Shown here in pieces: positions 11,710 to 36,646 of a stretch of 36,646 nucleotides of DNA. The notes under the pieces were generated by a model. It was not told the origin of the DNA and ran no database searches. It saw nothing but the letters and a program-made list of their open reading frames with translations. The translations under genes were made by a program, and so were the position numbers. The stretch comes from Parashewanella hymeniacidonis. Lineage in GTDB: Bacteria; Pseudomonadota; Gammaproteobacteria; Enterobacterales; Shewanellaceae. How positions within the stretch are numbered: the first letter of the stretch is position 1; each line of letters starts with the position of its first letter. Location: the NCBI RefSeq assembly GCF_016900895.1, contig NZ_JAFEUN010000042.1, positions 1 to 36,646 on the forward strand, in the 5' to 3' direction.

Positions 11710-12477
11710 TTATTCAGGAGCAATAACGGTATTACGGTAGGCAGGGCGATATTTATCAACCCACAGAGCCGTAGCTCCACAAATCGCCACTGGCATGACA
11801 ATAAAATTCACGATTGGAATCATTGAAAATAATGAAACAGTAGCGCCAAACGTGTAAGACGTGCCTTTGGTATTCTTTAGTGCAAACTTCATATCATCAA
11901 ATTTCACTTTATGATTATCGAATGGATAATCACAATACTGAATCGACATCATCCATGCGGTAAAAATAAACCAAACGATTGGTGCCACAGTTTGTCCTAC
12001 ACCTGGAATAATAAACAATAACAAGCATAAAATTGCTTTCGGTAGGTAATACTTGAGTTTCTGCCACTCTCGTCCGAGGATTCTTGGCAAATCTTTGATT
12101 AAATCCATGGTGCCGCCTGTATTAAGCGGTTTTCCTGTGAGTGCCTGTTCGACCTTTTCTGCAAGTAAGCCATTGAAAGGGGCGGCTAACCAATTCATCA
12201 CCGAGCTAAAAATAAATGACATGGTGATCAATAGCGAGACGATAGCAATTGGCCATAATAAAAAGTGTAACCAAGATAAAAAGTCGGGAAGCTGACCATT
12301 TAACCAATTAAAGAGTTGCTCCATTCTGCCAAATGCAAAATAGAAAGCCACGGCGAAAAGCAAGAAGTTAATGGTCAGTGGAATAAACACAAAGCTTCTC
12401 AAACCAGGTCTTTTAATCAGGCTAAAACCTTCAAGAAAATAATTCACGCCACTTTTATTGGTGCTTTTTTGATTCAT
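11710..12477 (-). CDS. cysZ: sulfate transporter CysZ
   Basis: With the ATG at 12477 the protein has 255 residues (E. coli CysZ has 253). It starts MNQKSTNKSGVNYFLEG; the longer frame from TTG at 12501 adds eight residues not expected in the family. CysZ is an inner-membrane sulfate importer feeding cysteine synthesis. Hydrophobic segments at about 30-50, 67-92, 145-170 and 205-235 and the family-typical FLEGFSLIKRPGLRSFVFIP and NWLAAPFNGLLAEK blocks support the call. The gene is divergent from smc. In many gammaproteobacteria cysZ lies next to zipA, and here smc sits between them, as in Shewanella and Pseudomonas-type arrangements. Confidence 0.93.
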   Translation of the reverse strand: MNQKSTNKSGVNYFLEGFSLIKRPGLRSFVFIPLTINFLLFAVAFYFAFGRMEQLFNWLNGQLPDFLSWLHFLLWPIAIVSLLITMSFIFSSVMNWLAAPFNGLLAEKVEQALTGKPLNTGGTMDLIKDLPRILGREWQKLKYYLPKAILCLLLFIIPGVGQTVAPIVWFIFTAWMMSIQYCDYPFDNHKVKFDDMKFALKNTKGTSYTFGATVSLFSMIPIVNFIVMPVAICGATALWVDKYRPAYRNTVIAPE

Positions 12478-12587
12478 TATCAAAATACCTAAAATCAACA
12501 ATAGCTTGATTGTGAATAACTTGCTTTAAAATAACAAGTAAAGTGCAATCTGAAAGATGTAAAAAACGTTACAAAATGCTGCGTGCT

Positions 12588-12616
12588 TTGCTAAAGTACC
12601 ATTGTTATTCCATAAA
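12588..12616 (+). promoter_or_regulatory. putative promoter of smc, upstream of the inserted element
   Basis: TTGCTA (12588-12593) and CATAAA (12611-12616) are separated by 17 bp. If this is the native promoter, the transcript must cross the whole 297 bp element before the start codon. The match is modest, and a promoter inside the element is an alternative. Confidence 0.35.
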
Positions 12617-12638
12617 AAATAAACCGTTACAGCCTCTA

Positions 12639-12935
12639 GAGGCCGTTCCCAATTAGTCATTTCGATTTGTTACTGCCTAAAATTGGCAAAATCGAGGCAC
12701 GAAGAATGAAGTTTAGTGGGCTAAACGCAGTAACGACAGTTTTGTATGTCGGTCAATGAAATATGAGTAACAAAGAGTTTGCCAATTTTAGGCGTAACCC
12801 GAAGGGCTGTGTATATTTTTCGTTTCTTCGGTGTTGCCGAATGCTTATGTAGAACAACTACACCCCACATTCGCCGCCTTGAATAAACACAAAATCTACA
12901 ACAGCAAATCGAAATAGTTAATTGGGCACGGCCTC
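12639..12935 (+). mobile_element. MITE-like element, family A copy 1 (297 bp), abutting smc
   Basis: The ends are inverted repeats of 31 nt with about 4 mismatches, starting GAGGCCGT. TA lies on the left (12637-12638) and TG on the right, probably a decayed TA duplication. There is no ORF. The left half holds a long stem: CCTAAAATTGGCAAA (12676-12690) pairs perfectly with 12778-12792, extended by GTTAC/GTAAC and enclosing the hairpin GTTTAG-TGGG-CTAAAC. The right half holds a second stem with nested GAATG/CATTC and TGTAG/CTACA. Hand alignment with copy 2 gives about 21 differences in 297 and no indels (about 93% identical). The element ends 3 nt before the smc ATG. Confidence 0.85.
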
Positions 12936-12938
12936 TGA

Positions 12939-15900
12939 ATGAAATTAAAACAAATAAAGCTGGCTGGATTTAAGTCGTTTGTTGATTCAACAAAAATCCC
13001 GTTTGAAAAAGCGCTTACCGGTATTGTCGGGCCTAATGGTTGTGGCAAGTCGAACGTGATCGATGCTGTTCGTTGGGTGCTTGGTGAAAGTAGTGCCAAG
13101 CATTTACGAGGTGGAGCAATGACTGATGTGATTTTCAGTGGTTCTAATGCTCGAAAACCCGTATCTGTCGCAAGTGTTGAACTCAGTTTTGATAATCAGG
13201 ATGGACGCCTTGCAGGACAGTATTCTAGCTACCAAGAAATATCGGTAAAACGCCAAGTCAGCCGTGACGGTGATTCATTTTACTTTTTGAATGGACAGAA
13301 GTGTCGTAGAAAAGACATTACGGATTTATTCATGGGTACCGGGCTTGGGCCAAGAAGTTATGCCATTATCGAACAAGGTATGATTTCTCGTCTTATTGAA
13401 TCTAAGCCTCAAGACTTACGAGTTTTTATCGAAGAAGCTGCGGGTATCTCTCGCTACAAAGAGCGCCGCCGAGATACTGAAAACCGCATTCGCCATACTC
13501 GTGAAAATTTAGAACGTTTATTTGATATACGCAATGAACTTGAGACTCAACTTAAAAAGTTAGAATCTCAATCAAAGTCTGCACTTAAGTACCGTGAACA
13601 AAAAAAAATTGAAAGAAGACTGCATGCAGAACTTTTGGTTTTAAAGTATCAAGAGCACACAACTCAAGTTGATCAAACTACGGTTAAAATTAATCGTTTA
13701 GATGTTGAGCTCGAAAAGATCAATGCTGAGATTGAGTCTGTAAAAGGACAACATACCAAGCTTTCGCTAGAATTAAGCGAGCTCAATGCTAAAGAGCAGA
13801 ATCAAGTAGAAGCTTTTTATAAAACAGGCACTGAAATTGCGAGACTTGAACAACAAAGTACTCATCAAAAACAACTTGATAAGAAGTTGTTAGAGCAGCT
13901 TGAAAAAGATGAGCAACAAAAATTAGAGCTTGAGTCCGATTTAAAAGTACAGCAGGAAAAGAGTACGCAGTTACGTTCAGAGCTCATCAATTCTCAAAAT
14001 GAGCTTGAAGTAATTCAAGAGCAGGTTGAAGAGTCTAAGTTAAGCTTAGAAGATGTCCAGAGTGAATATACTCTTTTGTCTGATACTGAGCGTACCCAGC
14101 GTCAGCAGCTTTCAGAATTCAAGCTTCAGCTTCAGCTCCATCAATCTCAACAAACGCATAAACAGCAAAATGTTTCACATTTAGAACAGCAGTTACAACA
14201 ACTCAATCAACAGCAAGACTCACTCGCTCAAGAGCAGGTTGATGTTGATAAAAAGCAAAATGAATTACACTCAGCTCATCAAAAAATTATACAGTTAGAG
14301 CAGAAACAAGATAAAGCTAAACGTAATTTTATTGAATTGGAACAACAAGTTTTATCAATAACAGCAGAACAAAAAACAGTTGAGACAGCGATTACAGAGA
14401 AATCTAGCCGAATCAACATTATTGAAGAATGGTTGAGTGATCACCAACAGAGTGAATCTCCAATTTGGCAAGTGATAAACGTAAACAAAGGTTGGGAAAA
14501 GCCTGTTGAGTTACTGCTCGGGAATATTCTTAATCATGCATATTTTGATACAACGAGTGCCGAAGAAATAGGTTTTGTTCATCAGAAAACAGAGTTCAAA
14601 AATGCAGTCATTACATCTTCTAAAGTCAATTTAGCTCCTTGGTTCAACAACGTTGAGTTTATTGAAACTAAGACACAAGCTTTAGCTGCAGTAAAAAGTA
14701 ATATCCAGATGATGTATTTAACCCAAGATGGTTACATTGTTGGCGATGGCTTTATCCTTGAAAAACAAAATACAGAATCATCTCAGCTTAGTCTTCAATC
14801 TGAAAAGTTAGAGTTATCAGCGCAGCTTACGGATTCTAAGGCTCTCATTTTACGCATTAACCAACGATTAGCTGACTCGCTTGAACGTAAGAATGAAGTT
14901 AACGATGAATTACTAAATCTGAATCAAGAATTGCAACAGATTGAACTTAAACGATCCAGTTTGTTATCTTCCATTACCGTGATATCAGAGCAACAGCAAA
15001 AAGATAACTTACGAAAACAAGAAATCGCACAACGAATAGATCAAATACAAAAACAAATTGTAGAATTACAACTTACTGATGAAGTTGAGCAAGAAAAACA
15101 GCAGCGAATAGAAGTCTCAATTGAAGACGTCGCAAGTTTGCTCATCGCTACCGAGCAAACGATGAAGCAGAAGCAAAGTCAAGTTCAACAAGTCAAAGCA
15201 ACGCTTAATGAATTACAACAAAAGCTCAATACTGGTGGCACGCACAATCAAAAGATAAATACACAGCTTGCTGTTTGTGAGCAACAAATCATCCAAACAA
15301 AAAATCGAATTGATGAGTTTAATAGTAAAGTACAAGAGTTACAAAATTCATTAGATTCGAAAGATGCAGAGATTGGAGTTCTTTCTCCTCGAGCGCTTGA
15401 GCAAGAATTGAAAAAGCAAGTTCAGCTTCATAGTGAGCAGCAAAGTGAGTTAACAGTGATAAGGCAATTACAGACTCATATACAAGCTCAAGTAAATGAT
15501 TTTACTCATCAACAGAAACAATTTGTTAGCCAGCAAGAAAGTATTGTGAAGCAAATCGGTGAGCTAAAAATATCGCGTGAAGGCATCAAAGGCCAAATAA
15601 ACAGTCAATTGGAGCTGCTAAAAGAAGAAAAAGTCGATATTCATTCAGTTGCGGTTGAAATGCCTCCAAATGCTGATATAAATAACTGGCACGAGGAGCT
15701 TGAAAAAGTTAAACAACGAATTGCTCGCCTTGGCGCCATCAACTTAACTGCGATAGAAGAGTTTGAACAGCAAAAAGAGCGAAAAGACTATCTCGATAAG
15801 CAAAACGATGATTTAACCTCAGCTTTAGATAGCCTTGAGTCTGCAATTCGTAAGATTGATAGAGAAACTCGCAGTCGTTTTAAAGAGACTTATGAAAAGG

Positions 15901-16346
15901 TAAATAATGACCTCCAAGTGTTGTTTCCTAAAGTCTTTGGTGGTGGCAGTGCATACTTAGAGCTAACGGGTGATGACCTTTTAGAAACAGGTATTACCAT
16001 CATGGCAAGACCACCAGGTAAAAAGAATAGTACAATTCATTTACTTTCTGGTGGAGAAAAGGCGCTAACCGCATTATCATTGGTGTTTGCAATTTTTAGA
16101 TTGAATCCAGCACCTTTTTGTATGTTGGATGAAGTAGATGCACCATTAGATGATGCAAATGTTGAACGTTTCTGTCGATTACTTGAAGAAATGTCTCAAA
16201 CAGTGCAATTTATATATATAAGCCATAACAAGATCACCATGGAGATGGCTGATCAGTTAATTGGCGTAACTATGCATGAGCCAGGCGTTTCTAGAATCGT
16301 CGCTGTAGACGTTGATGAAGCCGTGGCGCTTGCAGATGTAGGATAA
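12939..16346 (+). CDS. smc: chromosome segregation ATPase SMC
   Basis: The 1135-residue protein is a full-length bacterial SMC. The head has Walker A GPNGCGKSN at residues 31-39. Two long Gln/Glu-rich coiled coils flank a hinge at about 490-620. The C-terminal head has signature LLSGGEK at 1035-1041 and Walker B CMLDEVDAPLDD from 1061. With ScpA and ScpB (not in this window) it compacts and separates chromosomes. MKLKQIKLAGFKSF is the normal SMC N-terminus, so the ATG at 12939 is right, although it has no Shine-Dalgarno: the whole upstream 297 bp is the family A element, whose end is 3 nt away. zipA follows after 72 bp with a terminator-like hairpin between. No truncation is seen. Confidence 0.97.
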   Translation: MKLKQIKLAGFKSFVDSTKIPFEKALTGIVGPNGCGKSNVIDAVRWVLGESSAKHLRGGAMTDVIFSGSNARKPVSVASVELSFDNQDGRLAGQYSSYQEISVKRQVSRDGDSFYFLNGQKCRRKDITDLFMGTGLGPRSYAIIEQGMISRLIESKPQDLRVFIEEAAGISRYKERRRDTENRIRHTRENLERLFDIRNELETQLKKLESQSKSALKYREQKKIERRLHAELLVLKYQEHTTQVDQTTVKINRLDVELEKINAEIESVKGQHTKLSLELSELNAKEQNQVEAFYKTGTEIARLEQQSTHQKQLDKKLLEQLEKDEQQKLELESDLKVQQEKSTQLRSELINSQNELEVIQEQVEESKLSLEDVQSEYTLLSDTERTQRQQLSEFKLQLQLHQSQQTHKQQNVSHLEQQLQQLNQQQDSLAQEQVDVDKKQNELHSAHQKIIQLEQKQDKAKRNFIELEQQVLSITAEQKTVETAITEKSSRINIIEEWLSDHQQSESPIWQVINVNKGWEKPVELLLGNILNHAYFDTTSAEEIGFVHQKTEFKNAVITSSKVNLAPWFNNVEFIETKTQALAAVKSNIQMMYLTQDGYIVGDGFILEKQNTESSQLSLQSEKLELSAQLTDSKALILRINQRLADSLERKNEVNDELLNLNQELQQIELKRSSLLSSITVISEQQQKDNLRKQEIAQRIDQIQKQIVELQLTDEVEQEKQQRIEVSIEDVASLLIATEQTMKQKQSQVQQVKATLNELQQKLNTGGTHNQKINTQLAVCEQQIIQTKNRIDEFNSKVQELQNSLDSKDAEIGVLSPRALEQELKKQVQLHSEQQSELTVIRQLQTHIQAQVNDFTHQQKQFVSQQESIVKQIGELKISREGIKGQINSQLELLKEEKVDIHSVAVEMPPNADINNWHEELEKVKQRIARLGAINLTAIEEFEQQKERKDYLDKQNDDLTSALDSLESAIRKIDRETRSRFKETYEKVNNDLQVLFPKVFGGGSAYLELTGDDLLETGITIMARPPGKKNSTIHLLSGGEKALTALSLVFAIFRLNPAPFCMLDEVDAPLDDANVERFCRLLEEMSQTVQFIYISHNKITMEMADQLIGVTMHEPGVSRIVAVDVDEAVALADVG

Positions 16347-16350
16347 ATTT

Positions 16351-16386
16351 AAAAGCGATATATTAAGTTCTAATATCACGCTTTTT
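16351..16386 (+). terminator. imperfect terminator-like hairpin between smc and zipA
   Basis: AAAAGCG (16351-16357) pairs with CGCTTTT (16379-16385). After a 2x2 mismatch, ATATTA pairs with TAATAT around loop AGTTC, and a short T-run follows. It is probably a partial terminator within the smc-zipA-ligA run. Confidence 0.5.
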
Positions 16387-16418
16387 GTTAAATAAAGATT
16401 TATAAAACAGGGTAACAA

Positions 16419-19375
<2,957 letters not shown>

Positions 19376-29452: not shown

Positions 29453-29454
29453 TA

Positions 29455-29751
29455 GAGGCCGTTCCCGATTAACTATTTCGGTTTGCTGTTGTAGATTTTT
29501 TGTTTGTTCAAGGCGGCGAATGTGAGGTGTAGTTACTCTACATAATCATTCGTTAACGCAGAAGAAACGAAAAATATACACAGCCCTTTGGGTTACACCT
29601 AAAATTGGCAAACTCTTTGTTACTCATCTTTCATTGATCGACATACAAAACTTTCGTTACTGCGTTTAGCCCACTAAACTTCTTTCTTCGTGCCTCGATT
29701 TTGCCAACTTTAGGCAGTAACAAATCGAAATGACTAATTGGGAGCGGCCTC
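29455..29751 (-). mobile_element. MITE-like element, family A copy 2 (297 bp), inverted
   Basis: This is the same length and structure as the element before smc, in opposite orientation, about 93% identical by hand alignment and without indels. Perfect TA duplications flank it (29453-29454 and 29752-29753). The terminal bases GAGGCC... and ...GGCCTC and all internal stems are retained. No ORF. It lies exactly between the stop codons of the convergent GNAT and LysR genes and contributes a base to each. Confidence 0.88.
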
Positions 29752-30683
29752 TAGAGCCAATACTCTTCATCGATGGATTTACTGGTAAAATCAAAGCCAT
29801 TATTTTTCACTTCTTTCAGCACAAAATCGATGAATTCTTTAGCCGGCCTACTCAAGTAGGCCCTTGAAGGGTAAACGATGTTGTATATTCCCTTTACCGA
29901 TTCAATCTCGGGTAACACTTTTATTAAATCACCATTTTCTACTTGTGATTGCACGAAGTCATTAGGTAAACATGCAATACCTTTTCCTTCAATGGCGGCC
30001 ATTTTTGCAAATGCAACACTATTGGTAATCAAATTCCCTTTAAGCTTAATGTTGCCAAGATTTGAAAAGTCTGACGTATCGTTAATAACTTTACTGCTCA
30101 TAAAGCGATATAAAATACAGTTGTGTTTTTCTAAATCCATTGCTGAACACAAGTTTCCATGTTCTTCTATATATGCGGGGCTAGCGTAAAAATGGACTTC
30201 TCTTTCGAATAAGGGACGGACCACAAGATCTGCGTCTTCTGTTTGGATGCCAATCCGGAAAGCAACATCTAAGTTGTGCTTCACCATATCAAGCGGCTCT
30301 GTTGTCACCAATAGTTCCACATCAATCTGTGGGTGTTTGTCTATAAAAGAAAATATGAGTGAACACAGATGGCTTGCTTTAGGGAGTGGCAACATCTGTA
30401 TTCTTAGCTTGCCTGACAGCGGAGCTTTATCGGTATTTAAACCACTCACTAGGTTCTCTAACTCAGAAATCATCGAGATTGTTTGCTGGTAAAATCGCTC
30501 TCCAGCTGCAGTAGGAACCATTTCTCTGCCGTGGCGATGAAAGAGTTTAATAGACAACTCTTCTTCTAAAGATTTTAATCGACGACTGATTGTTGATTTA
30601 GGAATGCTTAATTGAGCGGCAGTATCGTTAATGCTTTTTTTCTCGACTATTCTGTGGAAAAGTGAGATATCTTCTGTCTTCAT
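29751..30683 (-). CDS. LysR-family transcriptional regulator
   Basis: The 310-residue protein has an N-terminal winged helix (about 1-60, with NDTAAQLSIPKSTISRRLKSLEEEL as the DNA-binding helices) and a LysR substrate-binding domain (about 90-295). It resembles the CrgA-like subgroup (RLSG..-type LSGKLRI linker, AFRIGIQTEDADLVVRPL). It is divergent from an RND efflux operon across about 120 bp, so it most likely controls that operon and itself. Its TAG stop is made by the end of the family A element; without the element the frame would end TAA after the same Leu. The extra C-terminal tail (about 295-310) is not part of the core fold. Confidence 0.9.
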   Translation of the reverse strand: MKTEDISLFHRIVEKKSINDTAAQLSIPKSTISRRLKSLEEELSIKLFHRHGREMVPTAAGERFYQQTISMISELENLVSGLNTDKAPLSGKLRIQMLPLPKASHLCSLIFSFIDKHPQIDVELLVTTEPLDMVKHNLDVAFRIGIQTEDADLVVRPLFEREVHFYASPAYIEEHGNLCSAMDLEKHNCILYRFMSSKVINDTSDFSNLGNIKLKGNLITNSVAFAKMAAIEGKGIACLPNDFVQSQVENGDLIKVLPEIESVKGIYNIVYPSRAYLSRPAKEFIDFVLKEVKNNGFDFTSKSIDEEYWL

Positions 30684-36415: not shown

Positions 36416-36646
36416 GTTTGCCCAGCGAAGCTGGCAAACCCGACAGGTTGAAAGAAACCTGTATCGCCCCGACTGAGGGGAAGATAATCCGAATGGCAAG
36501 GGCGTTGTTGGCTAACGGCAGGGTCTGAAGGAAGCCATAGGAAGTTAGAGGAACACAGCGAAAGTGAACCTGATTCGGCATAATAGAGAGGTAAGCGTCC
36601 GAAATAGCGCAACGCCAAATACTCAGTCAGCTCTATTGTGTGTTTG
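36416..36646 (+). mobile_element. 5' part of a group IIC-like intron (runs off the window)
   Basis: The sequence starts GTTTGCCCAGC at the end of the T-run. That is one base from the GTGTGCCCGGC start I recall for the class C intron of Oceanobacillus iheyensis. It then follows the domain I order: a GACAGGTTGAAAG..CCTGTATC stem, GGTCTGAAGGAAGCC, GAGGAACAC, GTGAACCTGATTCGGC, CCGAAATAGCGCAACGCC. No real gene is present; small minus-strand ORFs here are by-products of the RNA structure. The reverse transcriptase/maturase, if present, lies to the right of the window. The comparison with known introns is from memory. Confidence 0.78.

Follow-up and report, generated by a model that had tools for sequence, protein, structure and literature searches.

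A MITE-like palindromic element inserted directly before the smc start codon of Parashewanella hymeniacidonis

In Parashewanella hymeniacidonis the smc gene begins directly behind a small palindromic, MITE-like element, which raises the question of whether the element supplies the gene with its own promoter and initiation context, or is crossed by the transcript as a long structured 5′ leader. Both alternatives were offered by the original prediction, which was made from the sequence alone and held that in either case smc had been rewired by an insertion. The stretch of DNA analysed, termed the window below, is 36,646 nucleotides long and constitutes contig 245 of a 4.8 Mb genome; by SMC, the closest named relatives are Shewanella sp. 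OPT22 and Parashewanella curva. The features discussed are as follows, with positions counted from the first letter of the window.

11710–12501, − strand: cysZ (Pfam), divergent neighbour of smc
12569–12597, + strand: promoter-like TTACAA-17-TAAAGT with TG one base before the second hexamer, conserved in the family; putative promoter
12637–12638: left TA of the target site
12638–12669, + strand: left terminal inverted repeat (self-match to 12905–12936, 88%)
12639–12935, + strand: MITE-like element of 297 bp, a long imperfect palindrome
12723–12753, + strand: nested unit of ~31 nt inside the element
12794–12899, + strand: structured core, common to elements of other genera
12905–12936, + strand: right terminal inverted repeat, forming the −34 to −3 region of smc
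12936–12937: right target copy, TG in place of TA
12939–16346, + strand: smc, 1135 aa, intact (PF02463)
16419–17321, + strand: zipA, 72 nt 3′ of smc
29455–29751, − strand: second element copy (93% complementarity, match 29454–29756), between two convergent genes

The element and its insertion before smc

The order at the smc junctions is ...CAGCCTC-TA-GAGGCCGTTCCC...GGCACGGCCTC-TG-A-ATGAAATTAAAACAAATAAAG. Read from the sequence, the 297 bp body ends 3 nt short of the smc ATG, and this start is set by the N-terminus of SMC, in that the PF02463 protein begins at the ATG and homologues from relatives align from residue 1. As had been proposed, a MITE-like element with a TA target makes up the whole −4 to −300 region of smc. 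Its terminal repeats are ~32 nt each and 88% alike, and it folds at −107.4 kcal/mol compared to −70.5 ± 5.5 kcal/mol for 100 shuffled sequences (z −6.8, none as low). The scan reported no intrinsic terminator at the element. We also considered a short frame upstream of smc that ends at the TGA preceding the ATG, and rejected it, as no in-frame ATG, GTG or TTG is present after the in-frame TAG at 12915 (by eye).

The element before smc is carried by two of the five genus genomes examined, P. hymeniacidonis and Shewanella sp. OPT22, and is absent from the other three, namely P. curva and two further genomes referred to as G002 and G003. Two of these three show the target intact: in the alignment, G003 and P. 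curva read ACACAGCC-TA-A-ATG, compared to TTACAGCCTC-TA-element-TG-A-ATG in the window. The third, G002, has diverged at this position and reads ACAGCCCATTA-ATG. The empty sites in P. curva and G003 thus identify the insertion target as the TA at −3/−2 of the smc ATG.

That the sequence is common to two species might suggest an ancestral smc leader rather than an insertion. This reading is refuted by the empty sites and retains next to no probability, as the sequence is shared by only two of the five genus genomes and not by all relatives, the element occurs in multiple copies with TA ends elsewhere, and in 65 of 67 family rows, including three from the genus, the stretch between the conserved upstream site described below and the ATG is too short to contain it. 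By parsimony, the element would have inserted in the common ancestor of P. hymeniacidonis and OPT22, before their split, though the shared insertion could instead have reached one species by allele transfer. The TG at the right end is present in OPT22 as well. Selection or drift had been invoked to account for it; the altered junction itself is found in both species, and a part played by selection is at most possible. TAA-ATG and TGA-ATG alike place a stop in frame ahead of the ATG.

The promoter-like site and the start codon

The site upstream of the element, TTACAA and TAAAGT with a spacing of 16–18 nt, is found with at least 10 of 12 matching bases in all 67 Shewanella/Parashewanella smc leaders, and with all 12 in 63 of them. 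Its start lies between −68 and −174 in the 65 rows that lack the element and at −370/−371 in the two carriers, which are the only ones among the 67 to exceed 174 nt from the start of the site to the ATG. For a rough chance level we considered 16 rows from outside the family, where the best match in the same stretch is 8–10 of 12, except for Agarivorans with 12. In the alignment the site is identical in both carriers and G002. It matches only 3/6 and 4/6 consensus bases (by eye) and is missed by a simple promoter scan; from its conservation, its position and the TGn we infer that it is a working promoter.

There is no Shine-Dalgarno match longer than 3 nt at −20 to −4 of smc in the window, as originally noted. 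The lack of such a match is not caused by the insertion, however, since none of the 67 Shewanella/Parashewanella leaders has one longer than 4 nt in this region. Additionally, the last 20 nt before the smc ATG (e.g. GACGACCTAACTGGCACC) are alike in many Shewanella (loci L087–L145), again with no Shine-Dalgarno sequence (by eye), and this similarity suggests a constrained initiation region of a non-Shine-Dalgarno kind.

With both conserved across the family, the promoter-like site and the start without a Shine-Dalgarno sequence look older than the element, which itself looks like an added 5′ leader. The insertion probably left the promoter in place, because the conserved site is still intact on the upstream side of the element; a simple scan of 12440–13000 likewise finds no promoter-like excess over chance (2 sites compared to 1.8 ± 1.5 expected). 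Since the ancestral site is intact and the start is old, a crossed structured leader is favoured over an element-borne promoter, and is the better supported of the two alternatives offered at the outset. That smc expression has been rewired by the insertion is possible.

A different arrangement, in which smc was taken over by an outward promoter within the element's right half, leaving the left arm outside the mRNA and the start region open, is in our judgement rather unlikely. Sigma70-like promoters are reported for Correia elements, MITEAba12 and SonMITE_1 in the account given in PMC10969869. However, our scan finds no + strand promoter-like site in the right half of the element, the sole + strand site in 12440–13000 being in the left arm (12654–12683), and the upstream site has remained unchanged in both carriers.

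A family of structured repeats

The P. hymeniacidonis genome has 34 BLAST matches to the element, 12 of them 150 nt or longer and the others short pieces; diverged copies occur across the genome, several of them with TA ends. The element has the marks of a MITE, being short, multi-copy and bounded by terminal inverted repeats, with duplication of a TA that is single at the empty site in G003 and P. curva (the right copy at smc reading TG), and the TA target is of the IS630/Tc1-mariner type. We found no autonomous relative: searched with at most 3 mismatches in the five genus genomes, the ends pair at ~50–460 bp or have no near partner, and none of six DDE_3 places in the P. hymeniacidonis genome has an element end below 5 mismatches in 17; a parent with more diverged ends, or one in unassembled DNA, would escape such a search. 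Two elements lie ~3.5 kb apart in P. curva (L231, G004:C1:173500-178300) and flank frames that resemble an ABC transporter (named by eye), a possible composite arrangement, with no transposase noticed in the stretch between them. As no transposase with element ends was found, the link to IS630 is drawn from the TA target alone. An encoded peptide was also considered and rejected as a conserved gene, the 29-codon frame from ATGAGTAAC being whole in just 9 of 23 copies, with the others lacking an ATG, stopping early or shifted (one frame followed).

We aligned 30 of 56 places (alignment A1). A second alignment of 23 copies (A2) omits L165, L073, L063, L068, L190, L039 and L043, six of which have nested 31-nt units and one of which is a near-duplicate, and a third (A3) is A2 minus L175, L187, L041, L082, L048 and L044, plus five from other genera. 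The structure predicted from the 23 aligned copies has 63 pairs, and compensatory changes occur in 26 of these. Pairing is seen in 96.1% of cells compared to 89.0% in shuffles, and changes on both sides in 97 cells compared to 35.0, neither value being reached in any of 500 shuffles. Because this alignment also served to derive the structure, the test is biased in its favour, and relatedness among the copies widens the gap to the shuffles. Structures slid by 1–3 columns give 39–49% pairing. Template switching can also homogenise palindromes, and covariation alone is therefore no proof of RNA function.

As a DNA query the element gives matches in 8 of 60 genomes of the order, and the copies inspected outside the genus have the core in common and differ at the ends. 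A covariance model of the 107-position core, used with E up to 1e-5, matches 21 of the 60 genomes and 8 of 29 genera, with E-values that are rough and with some elements matching twice, on opposite strands. Eight of the 21 genomes (four genera) supplied model sequences and match by construction, and of the 13 that are independent of the model three (G010, G013 and G042) lie near the cut-off. Matches number 48 in the P. hymeniacidonis genome and 63 in G002. Nine genomes were reached via named loci and eight of them match the core model, including Shewanella sp. ANA-3 and Agarivorans; OPT22 and P. curva, among the nine, are in the model, and others of the nine overlap with the 60.

In Rfam 15 the element has no match at gathering score, the sole match in the window being a group II intron domain (RF02001, 35.5 bits) at 36505–36646, broken off at the contig end. 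The titles and abstract openings covered by our literature search contain no description of the element. Judged from its sequence, it is part of a superfamily of structured repeats that show strong covariation, and is a new member of a known sort of element.

Correia elements have a TA target. Together with NEMIS in Neisseria they are described as likewise small, palindromic, gene-adjoining and transcribed as hairpins (PMC10969869, PMC2229807). Correia forms of 105 and 155 bp are given in PMC2229807, compared to 297 bp and several internal hairpins here, the comparison being one of descriptions. According to PMC10969869, mRNA containing Correia elements is cut by RNase III at the terminal repeats and some subtypes carry promoters, in contrast to the smc element, in which no promoter above chance was found. 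A similar example is ERIC, found in enterobacteria and Vibrio and also described as an imperfect palindrome in intergenic DNA (PMC2267715). It is ~127 bp long and forms a single long stem-loop according to the same source, whereas the family here has a basal stem with several inner hairpins; in Yersinia, RNA hairpins of ERIC are reported to affect neighbouring genes (PMC2267715, PMC10969869). SonMITE_1 of Shewanella oneidensis is a MITE from the sister genus, listed with a sigma70-like promoter in PMC10969869 and likened to our element by description. RUP in pneumococcus is also given as non-autonomous and inserting at TA (PMC2229807). RUP is mobilised by a matching IS630-Spn1 parent, whereas for the element here no parent of IS630 type was found.

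With regard to neighbouring genes, we inspected 26 copies in four genomes, which amount to 24 insertions when the smc copy and the second copy, both found in two species, are each counted once. The smc insertion is the only one at distance 0 from a start codon (longest-frame rule), an unusually exposed place. Among 28 usable rows of the P. hymeniacidonis genome (30 fetched of 48 core matches, minus L214 and L215, short loci whose core coordinates are wrong), L206 has another gene start 40 nt from the core compared to 38 nt for smc, the starts being uncurated. In eight of the 26 copies (seven insertions) the element extends over the stop codon of an adjacent frame of 100 aa or more. The element starts with G after TA at both ends (window 29453–29455 and 29751–29753; copies in P. 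hymeniacidonis, OPT22 and G003), and an element that enters the TA of a stop codon therefore leaves TAG. For instance, the two convergent genes at 29455–29751 both end in a TAG made of TA plus the first base of the element, and a copy between ruvA- and ruvB-like genes (L042, G000:C273:10800-11470; by eye) has the TAG of the first gene at its edge.

A hairpin unit of ~31 nt (CGACA-N8-TGTCG) is nested at three different positions of the element (window 12723–12753; L175, L048, L165, L073, L068 and L190). It has 15 further rows in the P. hymeniacidonis genome, some inside other superfamily members, and rows in other genomes of the genus too, and is possibly a tiny mobile repeat in its own right.

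Predicted consequences for smc and zipA

Assuming an RNA start 6 nt after the −10-like hexamer, a fold of −116.8 kcal/mol is predicted for the leader together with the first 60 nt of smc. On the same assumption, and with equilibrium folding, the predicted energy of opening −20 to +13 is 29.3 kcal/mol in the window and 21.1 kcal/mol in OPT22, compared to 5.0–13.4 kcal/mol in 62 element-free leaders (L087–L145, P. curva, G002 and G003), and the element leader is predicted to bury the smc start region. For four RNAs starting inside the element the value drops to 6.6–10.7 kcal/mol, which speaks for the outward promoter considered above. So does a difference between the two arms: of 302 positions compared at the smc element 20 differ between the carriers; six of these fall in the first 48 nt, and the last 48 nt are identical, a small, post hoc contrast (Fisher p 0.026), compared to two and two in the second element copy of the same carriers. 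This contrast would also fit constraint on the right arm as an initiation region, with loosening of the left arm.

A block of the start as strong as predicted could mean that smc has been silenced and is decaying in the carrier lineage, which we regard as very improbable, the 1135-aa frame being intact in both species. Over 1083 of the 1135 codons dN is 0.025 and dS 0.183 (dN/dS ~0.14), and 112 of 172 changes are at third positions; by this codon comparison, smc still evolves under constraint in the carriers. Since smc is intact and constrained, and the gene for its partner ScpA is present in the genome, the start codon must be reached.

The element might also be a neutral passenger, with the same anatomy and another effect: either little SMC protein is needed or translation is unhindered, and there is no regulation. 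The intact and constrained smc would agree with this, as would OPT22, where the left arm is altered at basal pairs and the opening energy is lower. Against it, the predicted opening cost lies far beyond the range of the 62 relatives, and we hold it to be possible but doubtful.

Any effect may extend to a second gene. The only terminator-like site within 16200–17500 is at 17336–17355, after zipA, which itself follows smc by 72 nt; smc and zipA are probably co-transcribed, and the element may therefore affect both.

With the insertion, its target and empty sites, the conserved upstream site and the continued constraint on smc in hand, we think it probable that the common ancestor of P. hymeniacidonis and Shewanella sp. 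OPT22 acquired a MITE that separates the start codon from the ancestral promoter-like site and adds a long hairpin leader, while the old promoter and the old start without a Shine-Dalgarno sequence were kept. A non-autonomous, TA-targeting, hairpin-forming element would have entered the TA at −3/−2 of the ATG, and the smc mRNA would have gained a leader of ~335 nt, mostly one long hairpin, with the old promoter and start codon remaining in use. This hairpin would lower or condition initiation. Initiation should be strongly hindered by a complete hairpin only 3 nt away from the AUG, which would agree better with an internal start. The start would most likely become accessible when RNase III, or a different RNase, cuts the long duplex and frees the right arm; we rank RNase III trimming of the smc leader as most likely, by analogy, because such cleavage is reported for Correia-containing transcripts in PMC10969869. 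Next in line would come a weak start within the element itself, or initiation on a hairpin that is breathing or not yet fully formed.

An added leader might further act as a switch, the closed hairpin keeping the end of the old leader beside the AUG and blocking initiation, and RNase III or temperature, through duplex stability, turning smc and zipA on. We consider such a conditional leader improbable; if it were true, a transposon would have put chromosome organisation and division under RNA-processing control. The family itself would matter for an inner structure maintained by compensatory changes and for its matches in 8 of 29 sampled genera (by rough E-values), with no match in Rfam 15. 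At the head of smc-zipA, closely related species offer a natural experiment, in which the same promoter-like site and the same kind of start occur with and without a very stable hairpin right in front of the AUG, and in which it becomes testable how a gene without a Shine-Dalgarno sequence tolerates a hairpin at −3.
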